This document shows positions 4,132 to 29,962 of a DNA stretch of 36,759 bases, piece by piece. Below the pieces are notes generated by a model. The model saw only the letters and a program-made list of their open reading frames with translations, did not search any database and was not told the origin of the DNA. Within the stretch, counting starts at the first letter, position 1. Each line of letters opens with the position of its first letter. A program made the position numbers and the translations under genes. The stretch is from a virus. The stretch lies in the IMG/VR virus record IMGVR_UViG_3300009151_000181, positions 1 through 36,759 of that record; one strand, 5' to 3'.

Positions 4132-4926
4132 ATGGCTAAAATGATACCATTTACTCTATTCAAAGAATCATGCAACGACCGAGGATATACCGAACGTATA
4201 TTTGAGGATCGTGGTGTGTATGTGTTATACTCTAATAATGGTATAAAATGTGAAATTAAAAAGAATCATTACACCATCGGTTGGTTAGCTAGACCAGAAG
4301 ATGTTAAAGTAATGCGCCAAAAATTTATTGAAGCTGGATTCTCTGAAAAATTTGGAAAACGTTCTGAAAAGCGCAAGGATGAGAAGGACTTTATCAATGT
4401 AAATTTTGATGGCGAGATACTTGAAAACTTTTGGGTACTTGTCGGAATCATCGAATCAATTGAAACTATTGTTAGAAAAGTTCGCGGTCAAGCAATCAAA
4501 CCGATACCACGTGAAGTATCCGAACGTAATATATTTGAAAAGATTGCTAAACGTTTTAAGTATTTTATTGATAGTGAAGATGGTTTTGGTTTAGAGAATA
4601 CTAGATCATTACTTGAGGGTGATAGTATTGACCACTTGATTACTATAGGTGAATCAGTTAATCGTACCAAAGAAAATACATACAGAGAACATATTGTCCC
4701 TTGTATTATGATTTATAATCAAGCAGTGACAATGACAATGGAAAAAGCTTCAATAACTGAAGTAGCACAAATGATTAAGACCAATCTTGCAATTGTTTTA
4801 ATTACCAATGAAGAAGCTAACTTATTAGACAATGAAATGGATATGCAAACTACAATGCCCGAAGGATGGAATTTTGGTGATAGCATTTTTGCTAGACTAA
4901 CTTCTGCCCAAATTCAATTGAAATAA
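4132..4926 (+). CDS. Unrecognised protein downstream of the HNH gene
   Basis: 264 aa, starting 3 nt after the HNH stop, so probably cotranscribed from the promoter at 3479. The N-terminal third (about 1-80) looks like a small alpha/beta domain ending in a basic segment (FGKRSEKRKDEKD). The rest is mostly helical, with no signal peptide, membrane segment or catalytic motif that I can identify. It could have travelled with the nuclease or be a phage protein whose promoter the cassette replaced. No function is proposed. Confidence 0.65.
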   Translation: MAKMIPFTLFKESCNDRGYTERIFEDRGVYVLYSNNGIKCEIKKNHYTIGWLARPEDVKVMRQKFIEAGFSEKFGKRSEKRKDEKDFINVNFDGEILENFWVLVGIIESIETIVRKVRGQAIKPIPREVSERNIFEKIAKRFKYFIDSEDGFGLENTRSLLEGDSIDHLITIGESVNRTKENTYREHIVPCIMIYNQAVTMTMEKASITEVAQMIKTNLAIVLITNEEANLLDNEMDMQTTMPEGWNFGDSIFARLTSAQIQLK

Positions 4927-4946
4927 TCTAAATAGTAGTATATAAT
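4918..4946 (+). promoter_or_regulatory. Sigma70-type promoter, predicted leaderless start
   Basis: TTGAAA (4918-4923), 17-bp spacer, TATAAT (4941-4946). Counting 7 nt from the end of the -10 box puts the transcript start at 4953, exactly the A of the exonuclease ATG. No Shine-Dalgarno sequence lies between. Confidence 0.65.
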
Positions 4947-4952
4947 AAACAC

Positions 4953-5954
4953 ATGACAACATACGCACTTATCGATACTGCAAATACTTTCTTCCGTGCT
5001 AGACACGTGGCATCACGTTCTAGTACATTGGAAGAAAAGATAGGCATGGCCCTTCACTTAACACTTGCGTCAGTCAATCAAGCTGTTCGCAAATACGGAA
5101 TCGATCATGTCGTATTCTGTCTCGAAGGCCGCTCGTTCAGAAAGGATCTCTATGCTCCATATAAAAAGAATCGTGTAGTAGATGCTATGTCTATTACTGA
5201 GGAAGAAGCCGAAGAGTCAAAAATGTTTTGGGAAACGTATGAAAAATTTACAACTTTCATTAAAGAGCGGACTAACGTGAGTGTCCTTCGTCACGAACGT
5301 GCTGAAGCAGATGACCTCATCGCCCGCTTCATCGCATTGCATCCAGCAGATCGCCACGTAATTTTATCAACGGATGGCGACTACGCACAGTTAATTTCTG
5401 AAACCGTTTCGCAGTACAACGGCGTGACTAATGAGCTAATCACATTAAAGGGCTACTTGAAAGAAAATGGTAAGCCTGTCATTGATAAGAAAACTAAAGA
5501 GCCTAAACTACTAGAAGATCCCGAGTACGGATTATTCAAAAAAATTATCAGAGGTGATTCAGGGGACAACGTGTTCAGTGCTTTTCCGGGCTGTCGTGAG
5601 AAAGGTACTAAGAATAAAGTTGGCATTCGTGAAGCATTTGAAGATAGAAACAAACAGGGCTTCAATTACAACAATTTTATGTTGCAACGTTACACAGACC
5701 ATGAGGGTGTTGAAGTACGAGTTAAAGATGCGTTTGAGAGAAATCGTACACTCATCGACTTGACTGCACAACCCCAAGAAATAAAAGATGCTGTGGATCA
5801 ACGGATTCGTGAAAGTGTCCGTATTGAAACTATTCCTCAAGTGGGCCTACATTTTCTAAAATTTTGTGGCAAGTATGAATTGACAAAAATTTCAGAACAA
5901 GCAGAAATTTATAGCAAATGGTTAAATACGCCTTATAAAGGAAATTTATTATGA
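4953..5954 (+). CDS. 5'-3' exonuclease / RNase H, flap-endonuclease family (T4 Rnh-like)
   Basis: 333 aa. Acidic metal ligands lie in the expected order: D8 (ALIDTANT), E118 with D120/D121 (AEADDLIA), D141/D143 (STDGDYAQL), and D202/D205 in the RGDSGDN turn that precedes the helix-hairpin-helix region. This is the FEN/T4 RNase H family, which removes RNA primers and 5' flaps from lagging-strand fragments. The ligase at 18885 would seal the resulting nicks. Length is close to T4 RNase H (305 aa). The predicted mRNA is leaderless. Its end overlaps the next start (ATGA at 5951). Confidence 0.9.
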   Translation: MTTYALIDTANTFFRARHVASRSSTLEEKIGMALHLTLASVNQAVRKYGIDHVVFCLEGRSFRKDLYAPYKKNRVVDAMSITEEEAEESKMFWETYEKFTTFIKERTNVSVLRHERAEADDLIARFIALHPADRHVILSTDGDYAQLISETVSQYNGVTNELITLKGYLKENGKPVIDKKTKEPKLLEDPEYGLFKKIIRGDSGDNVFSAFPGCREKGTKNKVGIREAFEDRNKQGFNYNNFMLQRYTDHEGVEVRVKDAFERNRTLIDLTAQPQEIKDAVDQRIRESVRIETIPQVGLHFLKFCGKYELTKISEQAEIYSKWLNTPYKGNLL

Positions 5955-6412
5955 AAACAAGTTGGACAGTTGATTTACAAGAAGACCCCTCTACCGGGGA
6001 CACTATATTAGAATTCCCACCAGATATGTTAGAACAAACAGGTTGGGGTGAGGGTGATTCATTAATTTGGAAAGATAATGGAGATGGAAGTTTTATGTTA
6101 ACTAAAAAAGAAACACAATGGGTTCTTGTAGAATGTGTCAGTACATTCCGTCAACGGTATATGGTTGAAGTGCCCGTGGGTACTGATGACTACGGCAAAG
6201 ACAAATCATTTTGGGCATTGGATACAGTAACAATGGAAGAAGCCAAAGAATTCAGTCAGGAGCACATTGGTGAACAGATTATCAGTCACCGTGTTGTTAC
6301 ATATGATGAGGCAATAGCCCTATCTGACAAAGACAATGCTTATGCTGTGTCTTGGGATAATGATATCAAAGTTAAAAACTTCTTTACAACATTGGCTGAT
6401 CAAGAAAAATGA
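5951..6412 (+). CDS. AbrB-like N-terminus fused to a small conserved phage domain
   Basis: 153 aa. Residues 1-55 (SWTVDLQEDPSTGD, PPDMLEQTGWGEGD, DGSFMLTKK) have the swapped-hairpin AbrB/SpoVT pattern found in antitoxin-type DNA-binding proteins and in many cyanophage proteins. Residues 56-153 start WVLVECVSTFRQRYMVEVP and include KEFSQEHIGE; from memory this module occurs alone in other T4-like phages. The protein therefore looks like a natural two-domain fusion. DNA binding is inferred. It is linked to both neighbours by ATGA overlaps. Confidence 0.75.
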   Translation: MKTSWTVDLQEDPSTGDTILEFPPDMLEQTGWGEGDSLIWKDNGDGSFMLTKKETQWVLVECVSTFRQRYMVEVPVGTDDYGKDKSFWALDTVTMEEAKEFSQEHIGEQIISHRVVTYDEAIALSDKDNAYAVSWDNDIKVKNFFTTLADQEK

Positions 6413-6636
6413 CCTTTACTACGCCAGACAAAACTATTAAAACAATACGTCAGGACGACCCTGACTTTCATATTCATAATGGATTTGTCATGGCGCCACG
6501 TGCTGGATTTGAAATTAGCAATGATTGTCCAAGACAATATAAACTTATGATTATGGAAGCTACTAAGAATGGTTGGCTACAACCAGTTGCATATGTGAAA
6601 GAATCAGAATATGTTTGGGAAAAACTAGGAGATTAA
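6409..6636 (+). CDS. Small conserved phage protein (75 aa)
   Basis: Starts in an ATGA overlap with the previous gene. The pattern HNGFVMAPRAGFEIS, then CPRQYKLMIMEATKNGWLQPVAYV, recurs from memory in T4-like phages of aquatic bacteria. It is a single small domain with no membrane segment or catalytic motif. Function unknown. Confidence 0.75.
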   Translation: MTFTTPDKTIKTIRQDDPDFHIHNGFVMAPRAGFEISNDCPRQYKLMIMEATKNGWLQPVAYVKESEYVWEKLGD

Positions 6637-6637
6637 T

Positions 6638-9093: not shown

Positions 9094-9550
9094 ATCGCTA
9101 ATTGCAAAACCTGTAGTTAAAAATCAATTTTGGATTGTAACTAATGGAGAAGAAAAAGTAGGTAATGTCCTTGCTGATGGCTCGGGCTTTGAACTCAAAT
9201 TAAATGGTAATAAAACTCATTATAAGAATACGAAGGCTATTGAGCGTATTACTAATATTCGTTTTGAGAATGTAACTAAACTCAAGACAGTCGAGAAAGA
9301 CTTACCCTTTAGTGAATATCCTACTACTCCTAAGGTATTCAATAGTATACTAGATGTAAGACGTAAACTACACTTGTTTACAAAAACAATAAAAAGTAAG
9401 TGTTATTATGCCGCAGGATGGTATGCAGTTACGCAAGGTAGTGAGAGTAAAGCAATTTTCTGCCCTAAATATATCTTTATCCAAAGATATGAGTACACGG
9501 GTCCATATAAAACTAAAGATGAGGCAGAAAATGTGCTAAATAGCATATGA
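9086..9550 (+). CDS. Conserved phage protein (154 aa)
   Basis: Preceded by AAAGGAAG in ribosome-binding range. It begins with a KPVVKNQFWIVTNGEEKVGN strand pattern, has a central EYPTTPKVFNSILDVRRKLHLFTK, and ends in YTGPYKTKDEAENVL. The pattern is familiar from T4-like cyanophage hypotheticals, without known function. Its stop overlaps the next start (ATGA at 9547). Confidence 0.75.
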   Translation: MNKSLIAKPVVKNQFWIVTNGEEKVGNVLADGSGFELKLNGNKTHYKNTKAIERITNIRFENVTKLKTVEKDLPFSEYPTTPKVFNSILDVRRKLHLFTKTIKSKCYYAAGWYAVTQGSESKAIFCPKYIFIQRYEYTGPYKTKDEAENVLNSI

Positions 9551-9756
9551 TTATAATAAATCGATTTATTGACAGAGTTTCAGCCAGTGAAGGGAAAACG
9601 GGAACAACCGTAATACTTCCCATGGAAGAAGCAAGAATGTTACGTGATGAAATCGCTAAACTACTGTCAGACAATTACGATTTATTAAACAAGAAAAAGG
9701 AATCCATTGACAATGCAGTTATACAAGTTGAAGTCAATGGTGGTAAATGGTCATGA
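9547..9756 (+). CDS. Small helical phage protein (69 aa)
   Basis: ATGA-coupled at both ends. Residues 25-55 form an amphipathic helix (EEARMLRDEIAKLLSDNYDL) likely to be a short coiled coil. No recognised function. Confidence 0.65.
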   Translation: MIIINRFIDRVSASEGKTGTTVILPMEEARMLRDEIAKLLSDNYDLLNKKKESIDNAVIQVEVNGGKWS

Positions 9757-10046
9757 GTAGAACACAACCTAAATTATTATTAGAGATTGTAGATAAAGTT
9801 ACATATAAATGCGACCAAATCGTAGAGGCCGCAGGCATATGGGCAGTATTTTATGATAATCAACCAATCAATCTAAAATCACAGCACTATCAGGATCCTG
9901 ACGCTACGCCTAAATATAAAAAGACTAGCTTCAGTAATCCTGGACATGCTAGAAATCTTTGTCGTAAACTCAACGCACAATTCAAAACAGATAAATTTAC
10001 AGTTGTCTTTATGAATCAAGGCACTTGCGTTTATCCAGATGAGTGA
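9753..10046 (+). CDS. Small conserved phage protein (97 aa)
   Basis: The ATG at 9753 overlaps the previous stop (ATGA), matching the junction style of this operon. An ATG at 9747 in the same frame would add two residues. Contains AAGIWAVFYDNQPINLKSQ and a C-terminal NPGHARNLCRKLNAQF pattern typical of small aquatic T4-like phage hypotheticals. Function unknown. Confidence 0.7.
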   Translation: MSRTQPKLLLEIVDKVTYKCDQIVEAAGIWAVFYDNQPINLKSQHYQDPDATPKYKKTSFSNPGHARNLCRKLNAQFKTDKFTVVFMNQGTCVYPDE

Positions 10047-10446
10047 CAGAAAATCACTAAAGCAAATAATAACTGAAGCAGTAGCAAACGAACTGCCCGA
10101 TGAGTTGCGTGAGGAACGTGATTCACCTGTAGATGGATTACTATTTAAATGGTGGCAGACAGGTAGACAGGATGGATTACGATTAACCGACTACGGTGAT
10201 CTAGCATTCAGAATGGCTGAGATTGAATTCTATCAATACGACCTTGCTTCACGATCGGCCGATACATATCATGCATGGGTAATAGAACTCAACAAAAAAA
10301 TCAAATGCCCCTATTACATGGGGGTAAATAAAGATGGAAAGAAAAGTAAACCATTCATTAGATTCTATGATAGCAAGATTGCCATGATGGTTAGTCTATA
10401 TGGAAACGTGAATGAATACTTAGATTCAATAAAGGTAAGAAAATGA
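10039..10446 (+). CDS. Conserved phage protein (135 aa)
   Basis: Starts 8 nt before the preceding stop. The N-terminus MSDRKSLKQIITEAVANEL contains I-T-E at 11-13, which could be read as a protease site, but it lies deeper than in the three clear examples. The middle has WWQTGRQDGLRLTDYGDLAF, followed by a C-terminal part with FIRFYDSKIAMMVSLYG. No catalytic motif is recognised. Its stop overlaps the next ATG (ATGA at 10443). Confidence 0.72.
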   Translation: MSDRKSLKQIITEAVANELPDELREERDSPVDGLLFKWWQTGRQDGLRLTDYGDLAFRMAEIEFYQYDLASRSADTYHAWVIELNKKIKCPYYMGVNKDGKKSKPFIRFYDSKIAMMVSLYGNVNEYLDSIKVRK

Positions 10447-10607
10447 CAGAGAAGAAAAGTTCTAATCCATTTATCAACATGGCTAATGAGGCTAAGAAGA
10501 ATAGTCCTAGATTGCCAGACGCAAAAGCCGCAAAACAAAAAGTCCCTAAACCAAACAAAGGTTTTGGTGGCTCATCAGTAATTCGTAGAACTGGTCGTGG
10601 TGGTTAA
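10443..10607 (+). CDS. Small basic phage protein with Gly/Arg tail (54 aa)
   Basis: Starts in an ATGA overlap with the previous stop. The sequence begins MTEKKSSNPFINMA, then Lys/Pro-rich, and ends in PNKGFGGSSVIRRTGRGG. The tail pattern is familiar from T4-like aquatic phages. A positively charged, probably disordered protein of this kind may bind nucleic acid, but this is unproven. Its stop codon shares a TTAA with the stop of the convergent gene on the minus strand. Confidence 0.72.
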   Translation: MTEKKSSNPFINMANEAKKNSPRLPDAKAAKQKVPKPNKGFGGSSVIRRTGRGG

Positions 10608-11098
10608 TAGCCCCAAAGACCTTCGTTACGCATACGTCGGATAGTATATAGGTATGTACTACATATAGCATAAGCTTTGACTTTTACCATAGTTAATAGA
10701 CTACGATCATTTATCTCCGGTAAAAACATAACACTATTTGTGTTGATAGGTACAGTACCCGGAGTAATCAATTTACCATTGCTAGCAGTAGCATACGGCG
10801 GGGGCGGCGTAGATGCATCAAAATGAAAATAGTTTGGATATAATTTAGAAGGTTGTGTCGCAATCCAAGTTTGCATATCAGTGTTTTTAGCATTGATCCA
10901 AAATCTATTACCTTGTATGTACTTTTCAGTTACTTCAATTATAGGTTGATTGTTGCCCACATATAATTTATTATCTATTCTCCAAACATCAATTAAACAG
11001 GAAAAACCCTTTTGTTGGGCTTTGCTTATTTGCGGCGGAGTGTTGGCATCCTCATAGTTTGAACCATCATAGATTCCTTGATAAGATATATAGAACAT
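10604..11098 (-). CDS. GDPD/PI-PLC-like protein lacking its catalytic residues
   Basis: 164 aa. The layout follows phage and bacterial GDPD-like proteins that begin ISHRGNxxG, then VEIDVW, LYLGHD, WIHCKN and a late GICS-Y. Here the matching segments are ISYQGIYDG (Y6, Q7 for His-Arg), CLIDVW (L35 for Glu; D37 kept), LYVGNN (N49, N50 for His-Asp) and WINAKN (N69 for His). The fold-forming flanks are kept while the metal and acid-base residues are gone, so hydrolysis is unlikely and a binding or structural role is inferred. The late-type box CATAAATA sits so that transcription should begin at the ATG. The family call is from memory of the pattern. Confidence 0.7.
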   Translation of the reverse strand: MFYISYQGIYDGSNYEDANTPPQISKAQQKGFSCLIDVWRIDNKLYVGNNQPIIEVTEKYIQGNRFWINAKNTDMQTWIATQPSKLYPNYFHFDASTPPPPYATASNGKLITPGTVPINTNSVMFLPEINDRSLLTMVKVKAYAICSTYLYTIRRMRNEGLWGY

Positions 11099-11102: not shown

Positions 11103-11110
11103 TATTTATG
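11103..11110 (-). promoter_or_regulatory. Late promoter CATAAATA, predicted leaderless start
   Basis: Minus-strand CATAAATA. With the T4 late spacing the start falls at 11097, 1 nt from the A of the ATG at 11098. No Shine-Dalgarno sequence is present. Confidence 0.6.
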
Positions 11111-11456: not shown

Positions 11457-11681
11457 ATAAGACTTACATTAATCAGATTTCACGGAATCAATCCAATTGA
11501 TGTTCTGATTGATGATGAGGACATATTAGTAAATTCTAGACGCATTGTTGGGAAGGTTGATAACCCTCCCGATGATGTTGAAGAGGAACTAAGTGATTAT
11601 ATAGAGTCTAGACTCAACCTTGCTAGGAATTTAGCAATGATGAAGTACAGACATAAATATCAGGATGAAGCTGTATTTTAA
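11457..11681 (+). CDS. Conserved-looking 74-codon frame with no ATG/GTG/TTG start
   Basis: The frame from 11457 to the TAA at 11679-11681 reads IRLTLIRFHGINPIDVLIDD, EDILVNSRRIVGKVDNPPDD and EELSDYIESRLNLARNLAMM. This has the composition and regularity of a real protein, and I recall similar small phage proteins starting with M-I/L-R/K-L. The first possible codon after the preceding stop is ATA (11457); only ATT, ATC, CTG and two very late ATG codons follow. The frame is also open upstream inside the secreted-protein gene (+1 frame, back to about 11340). Options are an AUA start, a +1 frameshift near the end of 11189-11452, or a sequence error or mutation. Its end overlaps the next gene by 17 nt. 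Confidence 0.5.
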   Translation: MRLTLIRFHGINPIDVLIDDEDILVNSRRIVGKVDNPPDDVEEELSDYIESRLNLARNLAMMKYRHKYQDEAVF

Positions 11682-12420
11682 ATTTAATATTCTACCTGAA
11701 TTCATAATACATTCACGTGTGAATTCTGTAATAGAAGGTTATGGTTTGGATACGGTTTCTGACTGTCTAGACAAAACTCACTTTAAAAATTACCCATATA
11801 AAGTTGAACACAAATTCAATGACAGGGGATTTAGGGACGATGTTTGGCCTGTATCTAACTTAGATGAATGTATATGGTGTGTGGGAGATAGTTTCACAGT
11901 AGGCATAGGATCTCCTAGAGAACATACATGGACTTATCTATTACAAGAAAAAACAAAAATAAGAACAATTAATATTAGTATGGATGGTGCTAGCAACACA
12001 TGGATTGCTCGAAAAGCATCAAGCGTTATTGAGTCTATCGTACCAAAAAATTTAATTATCCAATGGTCTTATATACATCGTAGAGAACTTTTTGATACTC
12101 GATTGTCAGATGAAAACCGAAGACTGTGGTATGATGAAGATTTATTTGACGGTGAAGACAACATTAATTTAACCCTAGATAATATAGCCCAAGTTGATAC
12201 TCTTGCAAAAACTCGAGGAGTCAATGTTATTCATACATTTGTACCAGATTGTGTTCCTAAGTGGGATAGAGAATTATTTTATGACAAAGTGAGACAATTT
12301 AAGATAGGTATCGTTGATTATGATGTGTTAGATAAAGCAAGAGACGGGCATCATTACGATATAAAAACGGCAGACTTGTTGACCGATAACATTGTCAACT
12401 CGGGTCTATTAAATATATAA
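11665..12420 (+). CDS. SGNH/GDSL-type hydrolase
   Basis: 251 aa. Block I is CVGDSFTVGIG with S76 as nucleophile; block II-like N-I-S-M-D-G-A-S-N follows; block V is D227-G-H229-H230 near the C-terminus (KARDGHHYD). This Ser-His-Asp arrangement is the SGNH esterase/acyl-hydrolase fold. There is no signal peptide, so it acts in the cytoplasm or in the virion. Phage members may de-acetylate surface polysaccharides or modify glycans, but the substrate cannot be read from sequence. It starts inside the preceding frame and runs up to a late promoter. Confidence 0.8.
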   Translation: MKLYFKFNILPEFIIHSRVNSVIEGYGLDTVSDCLDKTHFKNYPYKVEHKFNDRGFRDDVWPVSNLDECIWCVGDSFTVGIGSPREHTWTYLLQEKTKIRTINISMDGASNTWIARKASSVIESIVPKNLIIQWSYIHRRELFDTRLSDENRRLWYDEDLFDGEDNINLTLDNIAQVDTLAKTRGVNVIHTFVPDCVPKWDRELFYDKVRQFKIGIVDYDVLDKARDGHHYDIKTADLLTDNIVNSGLLNI

Positions 12421-13584: not shown

Positions 13585-13592
13585 TATAAATA
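13585..13592 (+). promoter_or_regulatory. Late promoter TATAAATA, predicted leaderless start
   Basis: Exact TATAAATA. T4 late spacing puts the start at 13598, exactly the A of the downstream ATG. No ribosome-binding site is present. Confidence 0.72.
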
Positions 13593-13597: not shown

Positions 13598-14704
13598 ATG
13601 AATGTATTAATATTAACTCCCGATCGTGTAGGTAGCACTCTACTACAACGCCTGATAACTGTTTACATGAATGCACATGAATATGACAAACCAGTTATTA
13701 ATTTGCATGAACTCACTAATGGTATAGATTTATATTACAGTGATGTATATAACAGAGAAGTATTAGGTAAGCCTAGAAATGGCAAAGAATGGGGATACTA
13801 CCAATCATTGGAAGAAGTAGTAAACAACTTATCAAAAGCTGACCACTATAAAACAGCTAGACTTGCATTATACCATTTAAATAACAGAAATGATAGTACC
13901 GAAGATAAAACTCAATTTTATAATTATATTAATGATAATTTTTATATAATATCCGCACGTAGGAATAATCTATTTGAACACGCTATCAGCTGGGGCATTG
14001 TTACTGCTAGTAAAAAATTAAATGTGTATACTCATGCTGAAAAAATAGATACCTTCTATAACATATACAAAAATGGCATAACTATTAATGAGACAACATT
14101 GAAAAATTATTTGTATAGTTACAAAGAATATCTTAAATGGTCTGATACTCATTTTAGAGTAGCAAGTTATTTTGACTATGAAAAAGACTTAAAAGATATT
14201 GAAAAATATATATTGAATTTAGATATATTCCCTAATAAAGAAAAGAAAACATGGAATGATATATTCAATATTGAGTGGAAAGACTGGAATAAATGCCATA
14301 AACTAATTAGTGATGTTGGTTCAATGGATCCCAAGTTATTAGAGTATGCCGGTCCTAAAACTCCTAGCACAGAGTTAGTATTAGATAAACTTAAAAACAA
14401 TTTAAGTTTATTAGATCAAGATTATTTATTAGAACATAGTAAAAAATATATTGCCGCACACAAAGGTATAGGTCAATTAGTACGCAATGGTACATTAGTT
14501 ACCGGCATACCAATTAAATTACAAACTATGGCTGAAAAGAAAAAAGTAATCAAGAACTTTGATGAATGTATTGAAGTATATAATAAATGGGTTGATGAAA
14601 ATAATTTGGGTATTAAATATACCAATGACGAGTTAAAGCAAATTGCCAACGAAGAAGTAAAAAATTGGTACAACGAAGTGCCAAAAAACTTATTACTAGA
14701 ATAA
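13598..14704 (+). CDS. Sulfotransferase-like P-loop protein
   Basis: 368 aa. The N-terminus LILTPDRVGSTLLQRLI matches the 5'-phosphosulfate loop of the sulfotransferase superfamily (usually PRSGSTLL). The later stretch YIISARRNNLFEHAISWGI matches the 3'-phosphate motif (R-x-N, then S-W). These enzymes move sulfate from PAPS to sugars or proteins; related predicted proteins occur in aquatic T4-like phages. Acceptor unknown. The C-terminal 130 residues are helical and charged with no match I can name. Its mRNA is predicted to be leaderless from an exact late promoter. Confidence 0.75.
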   Translation: MNVLILTPDRVGSTLLQRLITVYMNAHEYDKPVINLHELTNGIDLYYSDVYNREVLGKPRNGKEWGYYQSLEEVVNNLSKADHYKTARLALYHLNNRNDSTEDKTQFYNYINDNFYIISARRNNLFEHAISWGIVTASKKLNVYTHAEKIDTFYNIYKNGITINETTLKNYLYSYKEYLKWSDTHFRVASYFDYEKDLKDIEKYILNLDIFPNKEKKTWNDIFNIEWKDWNKCHKLISDVGSMDPKLLEYAGPKTPSTELVLDKLKNNLSLLDQDYLLEHSKKYIAAHKGIGQLVRNGTLVTGIPIKLQTMAEKKKVIKNFDECIEVYNKWVDENNLGIKYTNDELKQIANEEVKNWYNEVPKNLLLE

Positions 14705-15016: not shown

Positions 15017-15045
15017 TTGACAATAAATGGACATTGTGCTATAAT
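15017..15045 (+). promoter_or_regulatory. Early-type sigma70 promoter, array copy 1
   Basis: TTGACA (15017-15022), 17 bp, TATAAT (15040-15045). The spacer starts ATAAATGG. Downstream AGAATCTTAAACAGT is shared with the copies at 15940 and 36466. Confidence 0.85.
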
Positions 15046-15412: not shown

Positions 15413-15679
15413 ATGACTAAGAAAATCTCTATCAAAGTATTCGGTGATCCCGGACACGCTTGGGCACGTTTCCCCAAAGCTAAGTTGGTTAGTCTTGGTA
15501 TCGCTGATAAGATCACTCCTTACAGTTACCAAAATGGTACTAATGCTTTCCTTGAGGAAGACTGTGATTTGTCAACACTGATGGCAGTTCTTAAGGCCAA
15601 AGGTTATGAAGTAAAATTTAATGAGAGTTTTACCAACAAACAAAGCAAAATCCGCGGTTATTGCTCATACAAAATTTGA
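15413..15679 (+). CDS. Small conserved early protein (88 aa)
   Basis: The start at 15413 is chosen because it lies after the promoter and behind AAAGGAC. Sequence features: a VFGDPGHAWARFPKAKLVSL segment, ITPYSYQ, and LEEDCDLSTLMAVLKAKG. I recall similar short proteins from freshwater and marine phages. No catalytic motif. The next promoter starts inside its last codons (15676), showing how compact the array is. Confidence 0.8.
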   Translation: MTKKISIKVFGDPGHAWARFPKAKLVSLGIADKITPYSYQNGTNAFLEEDCDLSTLMAVLKAKGYEVKFNESFTNKQSKIRGYCSYKI

Positions 15680-15704
15680 CAATAAATGGGCATTGTGCTA
15701 TAAT
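15676..15704 (+). promoter_or_regulatory. Early-type sigma70 promoter, array copy 3, leaderless start
   Basis: TTGACA (15676-15681), 17 bp, TATAAT (15699-15704). Plus one falls at 15711, the A of the next ATG, and no Shine-Dalgarno sequence is present. This copy overlaps the stop of the preceding gene. Confidence 0.85.
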
Positions 15705-15710: not shown

Positions 15711-15935
15711 ATGAAATCAAAAATCTTTATTAATCAACGTGACAATGACAAGTATTTCAAACAGAAAATGCCTACATGGCGCAATGGTTTCTGTGAAATA
15801 GTCCGTAATGTCACGATTGAAAAGGACCCGCACGACATTTACCTAGACGGTGAGTGGGGTTACATTACGGTCTATGGCCGTAAGATTTATGTCACACGGG
15901 CCGGCACTGAATTTGCATTTGAAATTCGTGGCTAA
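15711..15935 (+). CDS. Small early protein (74 aa), predicted leaderless
   Basis: The start at 15711 coincides with the predicted transcript start; an upstream in-frame ATG at 15621 would lie before the promoter. Sequence is beta-rich and charged (DIYLDGEWGYITVYGRKIYV). No recognised family. Confidence 0.72.
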   Translation: MKSKIFINQRDNDKYFKQKMPTWRNGFCEIVRNVTIEKDPHDIYLDGEWGYITVYGRKIYVTRAGTEFAFEIRG

Positions 15936-15939: not shown

Positions 15940-15968
15940 TTGACAATAAATGGTTTTGGGTGTATAAT
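15940..15968 (+). promoter_or_regulatory. Early-type sigma70 promoter, array copy 4
   Basis: TTGACA (15940-15945), 17 bp, TATAAT (15963-15968), 4 bp after the preceding stop. The leader carries AGAATCTTAAACAGTT and a CAGGAG ribosome-binding site. Confidence 0.85.
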
Positions 15969-18888: not shown

Positions 18889-20231
18889 GTGCAAGTTGGA
18901 TTAATAAATTAAATGAATCAGATAGCCGTCTTCATAAGGAAGATATTATCAAACAAGCATTAGAGGCAAGTGTCCTCGGTAGCATTAATAGTCAAGTGTT
19001 TTTAGGCTTTCTCAAAGCCTGTTACAATCCCTACGTAACATTTGGTGTCAAACAGATTCCTGACACAGTTGGTATTGTTGATGCAGAAAATCCCTGGACT
19101 GAATTCAATGAATTAATGGTGCAACTTAGTCACCGTAGGTTGACAGGTCATGCCGCACGTGATGCTATTCAAAGTACGGCTGAACGATTTGATAGTGATG
19201 AATGGAATACATTCTTAGCACCTATATTGCGTAGGGACTTACGTGCAGGTATCAGTGATAAAACAATCAACAAAATTTGTAAGGGCACTGACTACGAGAT
19301 TCCAATCTTTGGTTGCCAACTAGCAACTAACAGTGAAGGTCGTCCTGAGATGAAGGGTACGAAACGTCTTGAGCCTAAGTTGGATGGTGTTCGTGCATTG
19401 TTCACTGTTATCCCCAGTGACTTTGATATCACTGTAGTTTGCTACAGTCGCAACGGTAAAGTGTTTGAGAACTTTGGTCACATCGAAAATCAGATTCACG
19501 ACAATTGGACCAAGATGGTTCGTGCGTGTAATGGTGTAGACCAAGGTCGTAGTCTCGTTGATGGTTTTGTACTTGACGGTGAAGTGATTGGACATAGTTT
19601 CCAAGAACTTATGCGACAAGCACGCCGAAAAACTGACGCACAGGCAGAGGATAGTGTATTAAACATCTTTGACATTATCCCTCTCGCAGACTTCCGTCGA
19701 GGTCATTGGAACGCACAATTGCGTAAGCGTATTGCTTTGCTTGATAGTATGCGCCCAGTTGTTGATACAATGCCCAATGTTGAACTACTGCCACACATCA
19801 TGGTTGACTTAGATACAGCCGCAGGTAAGGATCAACTTGAGCGTTATGCTAAGGACAACGTTAATGCAGGATTTGAAGGCATTATGATTAAAGAATTAGA
19901 AGCCCCATATCAGTGCAAGCGTAGCACTGATTGGATGAAGTGGAAGCCCACTATTACTGTAGACTTAGAGGTTGTAGGTGTTGAAGAAGGTACTGGACGT
20001 AATCTTGGACGCTTGGGAGCACTTGTTTGTGCAGGTGTAGATGATGGGAAAGAAATTTCAGTCAATGTTGGTAGTGGCTTTAGTGACGGTGATAGAGATG
20101 ATTACTGGAATAATCGCAATCTGGTCATTGGCAGAACTTGTGAGGTACTGTGTGATGTGATTACACAAAACCAAGATGGTACATACAGTTTGCGCTTTCC
20201 ACGCTTTGTTAGATTCCGTGATGACAAATAA
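18885..20231 (+). CDS. ATP-dependent DNA ligase
   Basis: 448 aa. Motif I is EPKLDGVR, with K165 as the adenylated lysine. Motif III is LDGEVIG, motif IV GFEGIMIK, and motif V MKWKP; an OB-fold domain follows (EVVGVEEGTGRNLGRLGALV). The N-terminal 130 residues form the DNA-binding helical domain (SHRRLTGHAARDAI, RRDLRAGI). It seals nicks in phage DNA and would pair with the 5' exonuclease at 4953 in Okazaki fragment processing. Size is near T4 gp30 (487 aa). Its start overlaps the preceding stop and uses the GGAG in the FGVKE tail codons. Confidence 0.93.
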   Translation: MSASWINKLNESDSRLHKEDIIKQALEASVLGSINSQVFLGFLKACYNPYVTFGVKQIPDTVGIVDAENPWTEFNELMVQLSHRRLTGHAARDAIQSTAERFDSDEWNTFLAPILRRDLRAGISDKTINKICKGTDYEIPIFGCQLATNSEGRPEMKGTKRLEPKLDGVRALFTVIPSDFDITVVCYSRNGKVFENFGHIENQIHDNWTKMVRACNGVDQGRSLVDGFVLDGEVIGHSFQELMRQARRKTDAQAEDSVLNIFDIIPLADFRRGHWNAQLRKRIALLDSMRPVVDTMPNVELLPHIMVDLDTAAGKDQLERYAKDNVNAGFEGIMIKELEAPYQCKRSTDWMKWKPTITVDLEVVGVEEGTGRNLGRLGALVCAGVDDGKEISVNVGSGFSDGDRDDYWNNRNLVIGRTCEVLCDVITQNQDGTYSLRFPRFVRFRDDK

Positions 20232-20234
20232 ATA
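20227..20234 (+). promoter_or_regulatory. Late promoter AATAAATA, predicted leaderless start
   Basis: AATAAATAC overlapping the ligase stop. T4 spacing puts the start at 20240, exactly the A of the next ATG. No ribosome-binding site is present. Confidence 0.6.
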
Positions 20235-20239: not shown

Positions 20240-20791
20240 ATGATAATAGAACCTGTATGCCATAAATTGTTTCAAGTAACTGATATATTACCTGAATCAG
20301 CATGTGAAGAAATTAAAAATCTTAATTGGTTAAATTTACCGGCTGAAAGTCCTCCCTTACAAGAACTGATGATACGTAAAAGAATCAAAGATGAAGAAAT
20401 TCCAACTTTAGTTAAAATAAATCAATTACTTGAAAAGCATGGAAAGGAAATAGGCAAACTGCTAAATCTTAAGTTTAATCACATACGCACACTTTGGTGG
20501 TTAGACTTACCCGGATTTACATCGGGTATTCATATTGATAGTACAGGTTGCCCTGCATTGCAAGCATATTGGATCGGTCCTAGTAGTGAGTATGGTACAC
20601 ATTTTTATACTACCGGAGATTACATTCCCAAACCTGCTAATTTAATTAAAGGTTTTGACTTTATTCCAAACACCGGCTATTTAAATGATTTAGCAGGGTC
20701 TGATTCTGAAAAAATATATCACGGGATGTTAAATCCTGTACCCGAAAATACTTTCAGAATATCTTCCTATACTCAGTTTTGGACTGAGTAA
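20240..20791 (+). CDS. 2OG-Fe(II) oxygenase-like protein
   Basis: 183 aa. H98-x-D100 in GIHIDSTGCPALQAYWIG and H161 in KIYHGMLNPV form the iron triad; R173 in ENTFRISSYTQF fits the 2-oxoglutarate binding arginine. Such proteins hydroxylate or demethylate nucleic acids, proteins or small molecules and are common in aquatic T4-like phages; the substrate is unknown. The predicted mRNA is leaderless. Its last codons form a terminator hairpin. Confidence 0.78.
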   Translation: MIIEPVCHKLFQVTDILPESACEEIKNLNWLNLPAESPPLQELMIRKRIKDEEIPTLVKINQLLEKHGKEIGKLLNLKFNHIRTLWWLDLPGFTSGIHIDSTGCPALQAYWIGPSSEYGTHFYTTGDYIPKPANLIKGFDFIPNTGYLNDLAGSDSEKIYHGMLNPVPENTFRISSYTQFWTE

Positions 20792-22621: not shown

Positions 22622-22629
22622 ACTAAATA
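22622..22629 (+). promoter_or_regulatory. Possible late promoter ACTAAATA, leaderless start
   Basis: ACTAAATA, two mismatches from TATAAATA. The predicted start at 22635 is 1 nt from the A of the ATG at 22634. A TATAAT at 22613-22618 lacks a good -35 box. Confidence 0.4.
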
Positions 22630-22633: not shown

Positions 22634-24295
22634 ATGCGCTTAAAATTTCTATCCTTCTCAAATCTCACTCTATTAGTAGCACTCTGTCTTAGTTCAGTGG
22701 CTGCCTGGTATAGTATCATCGGCTTAACCGCTATCTTTGCAGGTGCGGTTATCCCTGTTATCATTATGGGTACTATCCTCGAGATAGGAAAGATTACCAC
22801 AACTGTTTGGCTACGCAAGTACTGGGGTCGTTGTGGGTTCTTGCTTAAACTATACCTAGTACCTGCTGTGATTGCACTAGCATTATTAACTTCTATGGGC
22901 ATCTTTGGTTTCTTGTCAAAAGCACACATGGAACAAGGCATGATATCAGGTGATGTGCAAAGTAAAATTGCAATATATGATGAAAAAATCAAAACCGAAA
23001 AAGAGAATATTGAAGCAAACCGTAAGGCGCTTAAACAGATGGATGAGGGAGTGGATCAAGTATTGGGACGCTCAACAACAGAAACGGGTGCTGAAAAAGC
23101 TGTGGCTATGCGAAAAACCCAGCAGAAAGAACGTGCTAGACTTCAAAATGAAATACTACAGTCGCAAAAGTCTATCGCGGGACTTAGTGATGCACGTGCG
23201 CCTATTGCCGCCGAGGTACGTAAAGTTGAAGCAGAAGTTGGGCCAATTAAGTATATCGCGGCGTTAATCTACGGAGACAATGCTGACCAAAATATGTTGG
23301 AAGCGGCAGTACGTTGGGTTATTATACTATTGGTTATTGTATTTGATCCTCTTGCTATTGCATTAGTGTTAGCAGCCAACGCAAGTAAAGAATGGGATGA
23401 GGAGGGTGACAGCCCTCTAGGGGATAAAACACCATTGACCCCCGCTGTCACAGAACCTGCATATGAGCCTGATGATGGTCCTATTAACGAAGAAGCATTA
23501 GAGGCACTACGTGAACGTGCAAAAGAAGAACTACCGAGCGGTAAAATAATTACTAAATCAGAGTTATTCCCGTCAGACCCTACTATAAATTGTTACAAAT
23601 GTGGTACTGAATTAATAAATGCTCCTGGTATAGGTCTTTTCTGTCCTAATAAAAAATGTGAGGTGTTAGATAGCGTAGACAATTCTAATATAACATGGGA
23701 ATATATCTCACCTGCATCAGTGAACGTTGAACCAGAAAAGTCTATATTAGAACAACATCCATACTTAACTAAAGGTTTTGACCATTTTGAAAATTTAAAG
23801 CCAATGGTATATAAACCAGAAGCAGAAGCCGAACCAACCGCAGATACTGAAACTAAAATTGATGACGTAACTAGCATGGAAGTAAAACAAGATTTACCCT
23901 TTACTGAATTACCGGGTGGATATGTATCATATGAGGGCAAACATATACAGCGAGATGCTTTATTCAGTCAGCATCCAGAATTTTTAAAATTATCGGCTGA
24001 TGCAAGCCAACCAGTTAATAGTAGTTTTGGAACTAAGTTCCCTGACATTGCTAATAAAGGTGATGTCTTTACCAGAGTAGATGTATTGCCTAATAAAGTA
24101 TTTAAATATGATAGCAGAAATTGGATTGAGATTAGTAAAGAAACATCCAACACATACCTTTACAATACCAAATACCTTGATTACCTTGTGGAAATGATTG
24201 GTAAAGGTGAATATGATCCTGAATTACTATCAGACAATGAACGTGCTCAAATTGAAGACCATATTAAACTCAACAAACTTAACCAAAGTCATTGA
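22634..24295 (+). CDS. Conserved T4-like phage membrane protein with coiled coil and zinc ribbon
   Basis: 553 aa. Four membrane segments at about 11-30, 31-52, 70-93 and 226-248, with a long coiled coil between the third and fourth (108-205). The motifs VIIMGTILEIGKITTTVWL, TSMGIFGFLSKAH and VGPIKYIAALIYG are ones I recognise from a membrane protein widespread in T4-like cyanophages and pelagiphages; its role is unknown. After the last span come a zinc-ribbon-like C-x2-C / C-x4-C (C320, C323, C337, C342) and a C-terminal module (DVLPNKVFKYDSRNWIEI, GEYDPELLSDNERAQIE) that recurs in other phage proteins. Located in the host inner membrane. Confidence 0.82.
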   Translation: MRLKFLSFSNLTLLVALCLSSVAAWYSIIGLTAIFAGAVIPVIIMGTILEIGKITTTVWLRKYWGRCGFLLKLYLVPAVIALALLTSMGIFGFLSKAHMEQGMISGDVQSKIAIYDEKIKTEKENIEANRKALKQMDEGVDQVLGRSTTETGAEKAVAMRKTQQKERARLQNEILQSQKSIAGLSDARAPIAAEVRKVEAEVGPIKYIAALIYGDNADQNMLEAAVRWVIILLVIVFDPLAIALVLAANASKEWDEEGDSPLGDKTPLTPAVTEPAYEPDDGPINEEALEALRERAKEELPSGKIITKSELFPSDPTINCYKCGTELINAPGIGLFCPNKKCEVLDSVDNSNITWEYISPASVNVEPEKSILEQHPYLTKGFDHFENLKPMVYKPEAEAEPTADTETKIDDVTSMEVKQDLPFTELPGGYVSYEGKHIQRDALFSQHPEFLKLSADASQPVNSSFGTKFPDIANKGDVFTRVDVLPNKVFKYDSRNWIEISKETSNTYLYNTKYLDYLVEMIGKGEYDPELLSDNERAQIEDHIKLNKLNQSH

Positions 24296-24320
24296 CAACT
24301 AGTTACATTTAGTGTATAAT
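24292..24320 (+). promoter_or_regulatory. Sigma70-type promoter for the lipoprotein pair
   Basis: TTGACA (24292-24297), 17 bp, TATAAT (24315-24320). The GTGTATAATA context matches other early promoters here. It overlaps the preceding stop codon. Start near 24327, with ACGGAG before the ATG. Confidence 0.8.
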
Positions 24321-25991: not shown

Positions 25992-26015
25992 ATAATAAAA
26001 CAGATAAGTAAAACT

Positions 26016-27218
26016 ATGTCAACAGAAACAAAACTAAACCATTGCACATTTTGTGGTGCCCATAAAGAAAAAGTTAAAAAACTCATTGTCAGTGAAGAGG
26101 TGGCAATTTGCAGTGATTGCGTAGACCTATGCAATAAATTGATGATGGATGATAGCCATGAAAAAATAGAACCAACGGAACACAATGTATCCTACGATCC
26201 AGAGTCTATCAAAGAATTTTTAGACCAACACATCATAGGACAAGATAGTGCTAAGGGTGTGTTAAGTGTAGCAATTGCTAACCACTATAAACGAATCAAC
26301 AAGCCACCAAAAGATTTAGAAATCTCTAAGGGTAATGTTTTGTTAGTAGGACCCACTGGATCAGGTAAAACATTGCTTGCTAAAACAGTAGCAAAATACT
26401 TAGAAGTCCCCTTTATTATAGCAGATGCTACAAGTATTACTGAAGCAGGTTATGTAGGTGATGATGTTGAATCAATGATTAGTATGCTAGTCAATGCCGC
26501 CGGCGGCGATCCTAGACTAGCAGAACGCGGTATTGTGTTTGTTGATGAGATTGACAAGATTGCTCGCAGAGGTGAGTCAGCAAGTGTTACACGTGATGTA
26601 TCCGGTGAGGGTGTGCAACAAGCATTACTTAAATTAGTTGAAGGTACTATATGTCGTATTCCAGCAAGTGGTGGACGCAAACACCCCGGTGGTGATATGC
26701 TTGAGATTAATACAAAAGACATTCTGTTTATTGCAGGTGGTGCGTTTGTAGGATTAAAAGAAATTATCAACAACCGCGAGAATGGAACAAGTATTGGCTT
26801 TGGTGCAGAGATTAAAGATAATCGCAAAGAGTCAGAATTGACAAATGTGTCGCCTGATGACTTAGTTAAATTTGGAATGATTCCTGAGTTTATTGGTCGT
26901 TTTACTACTACAGTAAGTGTGAGTGATTTAAATAAAGAAGAATTGATTAAGGTTCTTAAGGAAGTTAAGAACAACTATATCGACCAATACAAATATTTGC
27001 TCAGTTTAGACAACATTGCAATAGACTTTAATGAAGATGCATTGGATCAACTAGCAGAGAATTGCTTAAAATTAAAGACAGGTGCTCGTGGATTACATAC
27101 TGAAATTGAACGCACATTAATGCCACATATGTTTAACACTAAAAAGTACCGTGAAAACAATGTTACCGAGATAAATATAGACAGAGATTTAGTTTTGGAG
27201 CCAAAATCATTAGCATGA
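26016..27218 (+). CDS. clpX: ClpX, ATPase subunit of the ClpXP protease
   Basis: 400 aa (E. coli 424). Complete by motif: C4 zinc domain (C10, C13, C32, C35), Walker A GPTGSGKT (112-119), pore loop GYVG (145-148), Walker B VFVDEIDK (174-181), RKH loop (221-223), IGF loop for docking on ClpP (260-262), sensor region GARGLHTEIE. It should unfold tagged substrates and feed ClpP. The phage also encodes ClpP (31486), ClpS (28054) and Hsp20 (27539). GATAAGTA at 26003-26010 has the same distance to the ATG as the leaderless late promoters, but it is a weaker match. Its stop overlaps the bS21 start. Confidence 0.96.
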   Translation: MSTETKLNHCTFCGAHKEKVKKLIVSEEVAICSDCVDLCNKLMMDDSHEKIEPTEHNVSYDPESIKEFLDQHIIGQDSAKGVLSVAIANHYKRINKPPKDLEISKGNVLLVGPTGSGKTLLAKTVAKYLEVPFIIADATSITEAGYVGDDVESMISMLVNAAGGDPRLAERGIVFVDEIDKIARRGESASVTRDVSGEGVQQALLKLVEGTICRIPASGGRKHPGGDMLEINTKDILFIAGGAFVGLKEIINNRENGTSIGFGAEIKDNRKESELTNVSPDDLVKFGMIPEFIGRFTTTVSVSDLNKEELIKVLKEVKNNYIDQYKYLLSLDNIAIDFNEDALDQLAENCLKLKTGARGLHTEIERTLMPHMFNTKKYRENNVTEINIDRDLVLEPKSLA

Positions 27219-27430
27219 GTGGAAGAAAAGTATTAGTGCAAGACGGCAACACAGAAAAAGCATTACGGAAATTCAAAAAGAAGATTACTGATTCTGGGTT
27301 ACTGCAGGAAGTTAGGGATAGACAAGAATTTGTCAAGCCCACTATCCGTCGTAAACTTGCAAAAAGTCAGGCAAAAAGACGCTGGCAGAAATACTTGCGT
27401 GACCAGAGTCTTCCTAAGAAAGAATTTTAA
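27215..27430 (+). CDS. rpsU: Ribosomal protein bS21
   Basis: 71 aa, the normal bS21 length. The pattern fits: EKALRKFKKKITDSGLLQEV, then DRQEFVKPTIRRKLAKSQAK with a basic C-terminal helix ending SLPKKEF. Betaproteobacterial bS21 proteins end in a similar QLPKK-x-Y (from memory), pointing to the host group. bS21 sits near the anti-Shine-Dalgarno end of 16S rRNA and affects mRNA selection at initiation. Phage copies have been reported in pelagiphage and large metagenomic phages. The ATGA overlap with clpX means the two are co-translated. It may replace host bS21 and bias ribosomes toward phage messages; this is inference. Confidence 0.9.
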   Translation: MSGRKVLVQDGNTEKALRKFKKKITDSGLLQEVRDRQEFVKPTIRRKLAKSQAKRRWQKYLRDQSLPKKEF

Positions 27431-28002: not shown

Positions 28003-28010
28003 GTTAAATA
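28003..28010 (+). promoter_or_regulatory. Possible late promoter GTTAAATA for clpS
   Basis: GTTAAATAC, two mismatches from TATAAATA. The predicted start at 28016 lies inside the hairpin at 28014-28035, so the fit is imperfect. Confidence 0.35.
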
Positions 28011-28013
28011 CAA

Positions 28014-28035
28014 GTGTGCGGGGTAACTCGCACAC
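28014..28035 (+). terminator. Hairpin between hsp20 and clpS
   Basis: GTGTGCG / CGCACAC perfect 7-bp stem with loop GGGTAACT, followed by ATTTAAAAAAG. Either an inefficient hsp20 terminator or a leader structure of clpS, as there is no real T run. Confidence 0.45.
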
Positions 28036-28053
28036 ATTTAAAAAAGAAAAATT

Positions 28054-29057: not shown

Positions 29058-29371
29058 TAAGCTTGTGGCTTAGCTTTTGGCTTAGCCGGAGCTTTTGCTT
29101 TAGCCGGAGCTTTTGCTTTAGCCGGAGCTTTTGCTTTAGCTGAAGTTTTTGTAGCTATTGTGGCTTCTGTTCCCAATGGGATCACTTCTACTACAGGAGC
29201 AACTTCTTCCACTTTTACAGGCTCAGCGACTACGGGTGTTGTTGAAACAGGTAATTCAACTTTGTACGGAACTTCTTCAATTGTTGATTCTGCTTGTTTA
29301 CGTTTTTGATTAACGCTATAGATCCAATAACCTACTAAACCTAAAATGATTGCTACTAAAATAATTTCCAT
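29057..29371 (-). CDS. Membrane-anchored protein with AKAP repeats
   Basis: 104 aa. Residues 2-20 form one membrane segment (EIILVAIILGLVGYWIYSV), followed by a Pro/Val/Glu-rich linker and a basic tail with three KAKAPA repeats encoded by 18-bp tandem DNA repeats (29084-29143). The predicted topology puts a long extended tail off the membrane, in a TonB-like or spacer style. AGGAG precedes the start. Function unknown. It lies upstream of and overlaps the dead phosphoesterase, suggesting a shared role. Confidence 0.75.
   Translation of the reverse strand: MEIILVAIILGLVGYWIYSVNQKRKQAESTIEEVPYKVELPVSTTPVVAEPVKVEEVAPVVEVIPLGTEATIATKTSAKAKAPAKAKAPAKAKAPAKPKAKPQA
29084..29143. repeat. 18-bp tandem repeat, about 3.3 copies
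   Basis: Unit AGCCGGAGCTTTTGCTTT starts at 29084, 29102 and 29120, with a decayed fourth start at 29138. It encodes the AKAP repeats of the membrane protein on the minus strand. Copy number may vary between strains by slippage. Confidence 0.85.
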
Positions 29372-29389
29372 TTTTATCTCCTAAACATA

Positions 29390-29397
29390 TATTTAAT
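29390..29397 (-). promoter_or_regulatory. Possible late promoter ATTAAATA for the minus-strand pair
   Basis: Minus-strand ATTAAATA. The predicted start near 29384 leaves a 13-nt leader containing AGGAG before the ATG at 29371. Confidence 0.4.
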
Positions 29398-29458
29398 CGG
29401 GTAAGATACCTAAAGTTTTTTTCCTGAAAAGTGTGTAGTTTCCATAATAACAATGTAT

Positions 29459-29466
29459 CATAAATA
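29459..29466 (+). promoter_or_regulatory. Late promoter CATAAATA, leaderless start
   Basis: CATAAATAC. The predicted start at 29472 is 1 nt from the A of the ATG at 29471. No ribosome-binding site. Confidence 0.6.
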
Positions 29467-29470
29467 CATG

Positions 29471-29962
29471 ATGTTCAGAACCACTACTATCGCCAATCTT
29501 ATGCTTGAGGAATTGCCACCAATTACCTATCAAAAACGGCTTTATTATAGGACCGATCATGGTGAGGTAGTAGTATTATACAAGATGTTAAATAAATTAA
29601 TTTTCAACAATAAATTAATAATGCCCGAGATTGAAGTAATGCCTCGTTGTAGAAAGTATTGGGGAATGTGTTTTGCAACCATAAACATGCCCACCAAGAC
29701 TGAGAGTTTTTGCAAGATCAGGTTGATGGATAAATGGTATTGCAAACAATGGCTCATCACAGTGTTAGCACATGAAATGTGTCATCAATATCAATGGGAT
29801 GTACAAGGGGTGCAAAGACTTAATGAGGGTAAACAACCTATTATGAGTCATGGCCCTAGTTTCTTTGTGTTTAGAGATAAGTTAGCAAAGCATGGTATTT
29901 CACTAAAAAGCGCACATAGTCGTAGACGCTGGTTCAAACATCAAAACTTATTTAAGTGTTAA
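29471..29962 (+). CDS. SprT-like zinc metallopeptidase
   Basis: 163 aa from the ATG at 29471, chosen because the late promoter predicts transcription from there. In-frame ATGs at 29453 and 29468 lie upstream of it. The zinc motif HEMCH is at 101-105 (VLAHEMCHQYQW) with the SprT-type third ligand region SHGPSF (H127). The flanking FNNKLIMPEIEVMP and WGMCF strands fit the family. Related enzymes (SprT, Spartan) act on DNA-protein crosslinks; phage members are common but uncharacterised. A basic tail (KSAHSRRRWFKHQ) could bind DNA. Confidence 0.85.
   Translation: MFRTTTIANLMLEELPPITYQKRLYYRTDHGEVVVLYKMLNKLIFNNKLIMPEIEVMPRCRKYWGMCFATINMPTKTESFCKIRLMDKWYCKQWLITVLAHEMCHQYQWDVQGVQRLNEGKQPIMSHGPSFFVFRDKLAKHGISLKSAHSRRRWFKHQNLFKC

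Follow-up and report, generated by a model that had tools for sequence, protein, structure and literature searches.

Predicted leaderless mRNAs from sigma70 and T4-type late promoters in an uncultivated lineage of jumbo phages

In the 36,759-base stretch of viral DNA analyzed here (IMG/VR record IMGVR_UViG_3300009151_000181; this whole stretch is "the window" below), we find sigma70 promoters and T4-type late promoters that lie so close to the start codon of the following gene that transcription would begin on, or next to, the A of the ATG. The best explanation of this spacing, to which we give a probability of about 0.88 on the evidence of the sequence, is that the genes concerned are expressed as leaderless mRNAs. 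An earlier note on this DNA had proposed leaderless mRNAs from both promoter classes, and the proposal, drawn from promoter geometry, passes both a test of spacing in homologs and contig-wide controls. The trait is not peculiar to this phage, and marks a whole uncultivated lineage together with the isolate HTVC008M and its close kin. Throughout, d denotes where the A of the ATG falls when the first base after the promoter box is counted as 1.

The window corresponds to bases 36,515-73,273 of a larger contig, IMGVR_UViG_3300027749_002876 (G001; 524,565 bases), with 99.97% identity and 10 mismatches. G001 looks like two related phage genomes joined in inverted orientation, with stretches of ~65-91% identity between its halves and a 4,089-base repeat at 99.6%, and because of this apparent fusion we handle it as two related phages rather than one. 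Considering open reading frames (ORFs) of at least 60 codons, and taking the background from 20 permuted 7-mers scaled to the 209 ATAAATA boxes of G001, we observe that 18 of these boxes have an ORF-opening ATG at d=5 and 24 have one at d=6 (42/209), where 1.1 are expected at each distance. At d=9-16 there are 7 ATGs altogether, i.e., the background level, followed by a second mode of 43 ATGs at d=17-23. A wider clade set of 180 contigs and loci (4.04 Mb, with repeated contexts counted once and IMG/VR loci overlapping some whole contigs) has 104/119/48/23 ATAAATA starts at d=5/6/7/8, and 2/1/5/3 for the reverse complement. CTAAATA, the form reported for phage Aeh1 (PMC1524935), gives 48/48/16/8 at the same distances, GTAAATA (7/5/2/2) and TTAAATA (5/5/2/4) are without a comparable peak, and ATAAGTA has 27 starts at d=6, contributed by clpX and a handful of other genes that recur. 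These starts are ATG-only in character, with 271 ATG, no GTG and 5 TTG codons at d=5-7 of ATAAATA, and 112, 2 and 1, respectively, at d=5-7 of CTAAATA. At d=17-23 of ATAAATA, 107/153 leaders in the clade set contain a motif resembling a Shine-Dalgarno (SD) sequence.

Sigma70 promoters have their own offset. Sites in the clade set with at least 11 of 12 consensus matches have the ATG at d=6/7/8 in 1/39/2 cases, and a leadered mode at d=28-35 has an SD-like motif in 269/306; G001 holds 54 sites with 12/12 matches (TTGACA, 16-18 nt, TATAAT). Transcription from sigma70 promoters starts ~7 nt after the -10 box. The late box of T4 is reported to span -13 to -6 (PMC1524935), and its +1 therefore falls at d=6. 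As read from these positions, the A of the ATG coincides in both promoter classes with the +1 predicted for that class, and leaderless mRNA is favored because two promoter types with different offsets each show this.

Within the window, all eight sites listed in the earlier note are present in the sequence: the sigma70 pair has d=7, the boxes at 13585, 20227 and 26003 have d=6, and the three that had been placed within 1 nt of the expected start (11103 on the minus strand, 22622 and 29459) all have d=5. Two further sites, 11652 (d=6) and 9535 (d=5), were absent from that list. An ORF-opening ATG lies at d=5-6 of 5/14 ATAAATA boxes in the window, where ~0.15 would be expected from the permuted-motif controls of G001, scaled. 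Two of the starts differ from the longest ORF: ATG 15711 sits within a longer ORF (15621), and this start is kept at d=7 by 7/7 non-self homologs, while the ORF-list start 29453 is upstream of its own box and homologs favor 29471.

Table 1. Promoters with closely spaced start codons in the window, the genes they precede, two leadered sigma70 promoters for contrast, and the bS21 gene
Feature	Position	Strand	ATG	d	Remarks
sigma70 promoter	4918..4946	+	4953	7	TTGAAA-17-TATAAT
5'-3' exonuclease (T4 rnh-type)	4953..5954	+			Predicted leaderless; PF02739, phrog_107, T4 rnh match
Late box	9535..9542	+	9547	5	GCTAAATA
69-aa protein	9547..9756	+			Predicted leaderless; without PHROG match
Late box	11103..11110	-	11098	5	CATAAATA
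164-aa protein	10604..11098	-			Predicted leaderless; phrog_34507 of unknown function
Late box	11652..11659	+	11665	6	CATAAATA
251-aa protein	11665..12420	+			Predicted leaderless; without PHROG match
Late box	13585..13592	+	13598	6	TATAAATA; soon after terminator-like hairpin
368-aa protein	13598..14704	+			Predicted leaderless; earlier label sulfotransferase-like, without Pfam or PHROG match
sigma70 promoter	15676..15704	+	15711	7	TTGACA-17-TATAAT, TG before -10
74-aa protein	15711..15935	+			Predicted leaderless; without Pfam match
Late box	20227..20234	+	20240	6	AATAAATA; overlaps ligase stop codon
183-aa protein	20240..20791	+			Predicted leaderless; earlier label oxygenase-like, without Pfam or PHROG match
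Late box	22622..22629	+	22634	5	ACTAAATA
553-aa protein	22634..24295	+			Predicted leaderless; DUF4407 match below its cut-off
Variant late box	26003..26010	+	26016	6	GATAAGTA
ClpX homolog	26016..27218	+			Predicted leaderless; N-terminal zinc finger; Pfam PF07724, PF06689
Late box	29459..29466	+	29471	5	CATAAATA; another ATG at d=2
SprT-like protein	29471..29962	+			Predicted leaderless; PF10263 (29453-29959); without PHROG match (29471-29959)
Contrast: sigma70 promoter	24292..24320	+	24352	32	Leadered gene
Contrast: sigma70 promoter	15940..15968	+	16003	35	Leadered, SD-bearing gene
bS21 ribosomal protein gene	27215..27430	+			Directly downstream of clpX; PF01165 at G001:63744-63896, phrog_21469

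We followed the spacing into homologs of the window genes, dropping any match that was at least 99.5% identical, began after residue 5 or had less than 40% coverage. This is the comparison to which the earlier note had pointed, and the box-to-ATG distance proved to be mostly kept, without an SD sequence, in the window genes and also in TerL and the 558-aa gene adjoining it. For example, d is 5-7 in 19/19 non-self homologs of the 10604-11098 gene, 5-8 in 32/33 of the 22634 gene and in 12/16 of the SprT-like gene, and 7 in 9/14 of the exonuclease; among the 28 for the 9547 gene, 25 have d=5 and one has d=7, and the three non-self homologs of the 13598 gene have d=6, 5 and 2. For ClpX, d is 5-7 in 12/23, and 8 of the 10 homologs without a called box carry GATAAATT at the box position (read by eye). 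Clade rows, with matches of at least 99.5% removed, show d=5-7 in 57/64 for TerL and d=5-8 in 54/56 for the 558-aa gene, the sequence upstream of the box being widely divergent for TerL and partly conserved for the 558-aa gene. Among the exceptions, L238 has d=9, three TerL rows have GTAAATA at the box position, and PA5oct is without a box.

A count of SD sequences within the leader is near-empty by construction at d of 8 or less, and the absence of SD sequences rests on the homologs, in which AGGA, GGAG or GAGG at -16 to -5 was scored. That these starts lack an SD sequence, as the earlier note had stated, is borne out, with 0 or 1 occurrence among the non-self homologs of each window gene: 0/28 (9547), 0/19 (10604-11098), 0/33 (22634), 0/16 (SprT-like), 0/7 (15711), 0/3 (13598), 0/1 (11665), 1/14 (exonuclease) and 1/23 (ClpX). 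The counts for TerL (1/65) and the 558-aa gene (1/57) include self and the second G001 copy. The two contrast genes keep long leaders, with d=29-36 in 25/28 and SD sequences in 20/28 non-self homologs for 24352, and d=33-35 together with an SD sequence in 18/18 for 16003. The companion claim, that genes with longer leaders carry SD sequences, stands for most of them and fails for the gene at 32146, which is without an SD sequence (d=27 in 3/3 non-self homologs). Among the leadered sigma70 genes we also observed a shared leader of consensus AGAATCTTAaaCAGTaAAaAAAaGGa, which follows sigma70 promoters ahead of small genes, in the window at 15040, 15963 and 36489 (+). Of its 27 sites in G001, 26 agree with the -35 hexamer at 5 or more of 6 positions; there are 5 sites in the contig G019, 0 in the contig G020 and 0 with such a -35 in five isolates, and the leader is possibly a common 5' regulatory element.

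Intrinsic terminators no more than 70 nt upstream of the box were found for 39/402 leaderless-type starts, i.e., a tenth, for 17/315 leadered starts and for 4/800 controls, which are random in-frame ATGs that lie mostly within genes. For these 39 starts, transcription very probably restarts at the box. In the leadered late genes, T-A steps occur most often at positions 4-5 (118/316) and 6-7 (116/316) past the box, an indication that transcription starts there, at the same distances as those of the leaderless-type ATGs. The host-type sigma70 promoters of this lineage and its T4-type late promoters (ATAAATA, CTAAATA and less often ATAAGTA) would come in two builds. In one, the start codon would follow the transcription start by ~11-28 nt, and the leader usually has an SD sequence; in the other, the placement of the promoter would let RNA polymerase begin at the A of the AUG itself or 1-3 nt away from it. 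On the most economical reading, the resulting leaderless mRNAs would be begun at their 5'-terminal AUG by ordinary host ribosomes, although the actual 5' ends, the translation of these mRNAs and the ribosomal route are what we infer from the geometry.

Several observations weigh against leaderless expression, or weaken what can be drawn from the counts. The clade counts are not independent events, because many rows are orthologs of the same genes (the 81 starts in G001 form 61 families), and the d=5-8 spread of the late class requires either a start site floating over 4 nt or leaders of 1-3 nt. The exonuclease arrangement is lost in 5/14 homologs, and four exonuclease homologs have a called start at least 26 nt further down; the sole non-self homolog of the 11665 gene has d=9, and the 20240 gene has no non-self homolog in the set. 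The distance is 21-25 for TerL in L227 and for the 558-aa gene in L222 and L234, and TerL of L167 (match 9493-11037), although 96% identical to TerLs of the leaderless type, starts from an SD leader and lacks a late box within 60 nt, apparently a recent swap of initiation mode. A T precedes the ATG in 273/402 leaderless-type starts (51% at d=5, 72% at d=6, 92% at d=7 and 81% at d=8) and in 155/316 leadered ones, and since it is also common in leadered genes it is not specific to the leaderless class. Similarly, the first 40 nt of the ORFs fold with a mean minimum free energy of -1.8 kcal/mol for leaderless-type starts, -2.4 for leadered starts and -4.7 for the controls, and weak 5' folding thus marks real starts rather than leaderless ones, because leadered genes share it. 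The fairer terminator contrast, between leaderless-type and leadered starts, is less than twofold. Because several boxes are located at the end of the gene before them, leadered read-through mRNAs may also exist, and a phmmer search of G001 did not detect homologs of T4 gp33 and gp45.

These points were weighed together with other accounts of the spacing. An effect of chance or of gene calling might be suspected in an A+T-rich genome (37% GC) with start sites chosen by ORF rules, but it is excluded by the permuted and reverse-complement motif controls and has next to no probability: G001 has 42 such starts where 2.2 are expected, and the clade set has 223 at d=5-6 where the reverse complement has 3. 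T4, Vibrio 2.275.O and 80 P-SSM2-like loci have no ATAAATA start at d=5-7, and the spacing is conserved in diverged sequence. The boxes could instead be translation signals on longer mRNAs from upstream promoters, and not promoters, as would fit their A/T-rich composition, the A-rich 5' coding regions, and the several boxes at the end of an upstream gene (20227 lies over the ligase stop codon). We consider this very unlikely, since two unrelated promoter types each keep their own canonical offset, the sigma70 type with a -35 hexamer at 16-18 nt, and since the same late box also stands at 17-28 nt, often with an SD sequence in between; terminators just upstream of 39/402 starts and the lack of a peak for permuted and reverse-complement motifs of equal composition argue in the same direction.

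Two further accounts differ less from the leaderless reading. Leaders might be extremely short (1-5 nt) and not exactly zero, which would accommodate the spread of late-box distances over d=5-8 and the many TerL starts at d=7, where 1 nt would be left if +1 is at d=6. We think this rather improbable, as the T at -1 at d=6, 7 and 8 fits a start on the A at each of these spacings, though it is common in leadered genes, and as the sigma70 class is sharp at d=7. It is somewhat easier to accept, if still less likely than not, that the same genes have two kinds of transcript, i.e., leadered or coupled read-through or operon mRNAs plus a leaderless mRNA made from the box at its own time in infection. 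Boxes inside the end of an upstream ORF (9535, 20227 and the homologs of a 64-aa gene) speak for such a dual mode, which is compatible with leaderless expression for starts without an upstream terminator; against it, in 39/402 cases an intrinsic terminator lies just upstream and the box is the likely main source.

To estimate the share of genes concerned, we class as leaderless-type any start at d=5-8 of [AC]TAAATA, d=6 of ATAAGTA or d=7 of a sigma70 site with at least 10 of 12 matches, and allow each non-overlapping ORF a single start, within its first 30% (the count of 81 given above for G001 took any ATG). By this count 79/618 ORFs in G001, 28/271 in G019 (263.7 kb) and 17/233 in G020 have leaderless-type starts, and the share would be about 10-13% of ORFs of at least 60 codons in the two largest contigs of the clade. 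HTVC008M has 14/183, and the share is 0.2-1.3% in PA5oct (3/405), P-SSM2 (4/299), T4 (1/252) and Vibrio 2.275.O (1/473). TerL and ClpX are of the leaderless type in G001, as are, in G019, a 997-aa protein that matches baseplate-wedge proteins and two others that match virion proteins. The capsid gp23, sheath gp18 and protease gp21 of G001 bear SD sequences, for its portal gp20 there is a late box at d=18 and no SD sequence, and neither box nor SD sequence was found at the starts examined for uvsX, uvsW, nrdA, gp43 and gp4.

Around TerL, 80 uncultivated PA5oct-related loci have ATAAATA starts at d=5/6/7/8 in 11/44/14/31 cases (control 0/0/0/0), 80 HTVC008M-like loci in 0/23/5/5 (control 2/1/0/0) and 80 P-SSM2-like loci in 0/0/0/1. 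In the P-SSM2-like loci (L488-L567), late-gene spacings are 20-35 nt, mostly without an SD sequence (3/70 at d=17-30), a pattern that in sequence terms is a third leader style, neither leaderless nor SD-led. On a TerL tree of 62 rows, the trait occurs both in the jumbo lineage and, in a region of their own, in HTVC008M and its nearest kin; 7 changes are needed, 5 of them forced by well-supported branches, under a crude presence label (at least one d=5-7 start after [AC]TAAATA) by which T4, P-SSM2, PA5oct and Phosso count as positive with 1-2 starts each against 25-46 leadered ones. This suggests that the trait has been gained or lost repeatedly, perhaps in matching the host.

The phage of the window is a T4-superfamily jumbo phage related to PA5oct by its core virion and replication genes, TerL and capsid. 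G001 has homologs of T4 gp17, 18, 20, 21, 23, 43, 44, 41, 46, 47, 30, 55, uvsX, uvsW and rnh, that of gp55 at E=3.2e-6. Its TerL is nearest to those of the isolates Phosso (50.7%) and PA5oct (48.7%), and its capsid protein to those of Vibrio 2.275.O (66.7%) and PA5oct (64%). A megablast search of phage records with 20 kb of the window yielded no match. The lineage is common in IMG/VR, where one ligase query returned 199 related stretches and TerL queries returned at least 600 matches for this lineage and its PA5oct-related kin. G001 also has two tRNA clusters, with 30 and 25 tRNA genes, and the window that encodes the phage ClpX contains a head-maturation-protease-like gene at 31486-32073 (+) (phrog_94, E=2.8e-51, with weaker matches to ATP-dependent protease families).

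The earlier note had called systematic leaderless expression unusual for a T4-like phage, and T4 and the isolated jumbo relatives that we searched are indeed at or near background. The T4 late promoters, which are read with the gp55 sigma and have TATAAATA at -13 to -6, resemble those of G001 in box, predicted +1 offset and core genes, including the gp55 homolog; they differ in that 0/65 ATAAATA boxes of T4 have an ORF-opening ATG at d=1-12, against the 42/209 at d=5-6 in G001. PA5oct and Vibrio 2.275.O, although close by TerL and capsid, have few leaderless-type starts; such starts do occur in uncultivated contigs whose TerL is 53-60% identical to that of PA5oct. No ATAAATA starts at d=5-7 were found in 200 kb each of Atu_ph07 and Phosso, and for GAP32 and 121Q pattern counts, the only analysis made of them, show no excess over the d=10-11 control. 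The Pelagibacter phage HTVC008M, a separate lineage on the TerL tree, is alike in its d=6 peak (9/45 ATAAATA boxes, and 23/220 in 80 related loci) and in having bS21; a published survey could not find late promoters in pelagimyophages (PMC7029224).

Lambda cI is a phage leaderless gene with its AUG at +1, but cases such as this one are single genes and here we describe a predicted genome-wide class. Bacterial leaderless mRNAs, which are common in Mycobacterium tuberculosis and Deinococcus deserti, are reported to open on an AUG or close to one, to do without an SD sequence and to prefer AUG (PMC9031893), features that the present starts would share; weak structure is reported for them as well (PMC9031893). 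The differences are that we are dealing with a phage lineage, with a late promoter as well as sigma70, and with 5' ends predicted from sequence. Phage transcripts have been remarked to be often leaderless (PMC5312081), and the portions available to us of a mainly open-access literature (PMC9004378, PMC9723584, PMC2988020) describe no genome-wide leaderless class in T4-type phages.

The earlier note's suggestion that the phage would have its own mode of initiation was not upheld, as none of 7 records, some of which are fragments, yielded a phage IF2, IF3 or S1 domain, and as ordinary 70S ribosomes are known to initiate on leaderless mRNAs (PMC9031893). The bS21 gene downstream of clpX is present in 4 of the 7 records (HTVC008M, PA5oct, G019 and both halves of G001) and was not found in T4, G020 and G021, the latter two being possibly fragments. 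As the sole cause of the leaderless-type starts it is unlikely, because PA5oct has bS21 yet few such starts. A scan of bacterial genomes with this protein returned 32 weak and scattered relatives at 34-50% identity (Bacteriovoracaceae, Bacteroidia, Margulisiibacteriota and others). A more doubtful extension of leaderless expression is that the leaderless and SD-led genes form two translational regulons, the balance between which would be shifted in infection, e.g., by the phage's own bS21 or the 70S pool, and that the trait arose separately in the jumbo lineage and in pelagiphages in matching host ribosomes. If so, the leaderless TerL, ClpX, nuclease and others would escape the SD-dependent 30S route, and capsid and sheath would keep their SD sequences.

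Most known cases of leaderless translation come from certain bacteria and archaea, and here it would be a built-in gene class of a phage lineage. This ties phage-type promoters to start-site choice and the ribosome route in a way that can be tested, and start calling in these genomes would improve. The isolate HTVC008M provides a system in which the trait could be measured.

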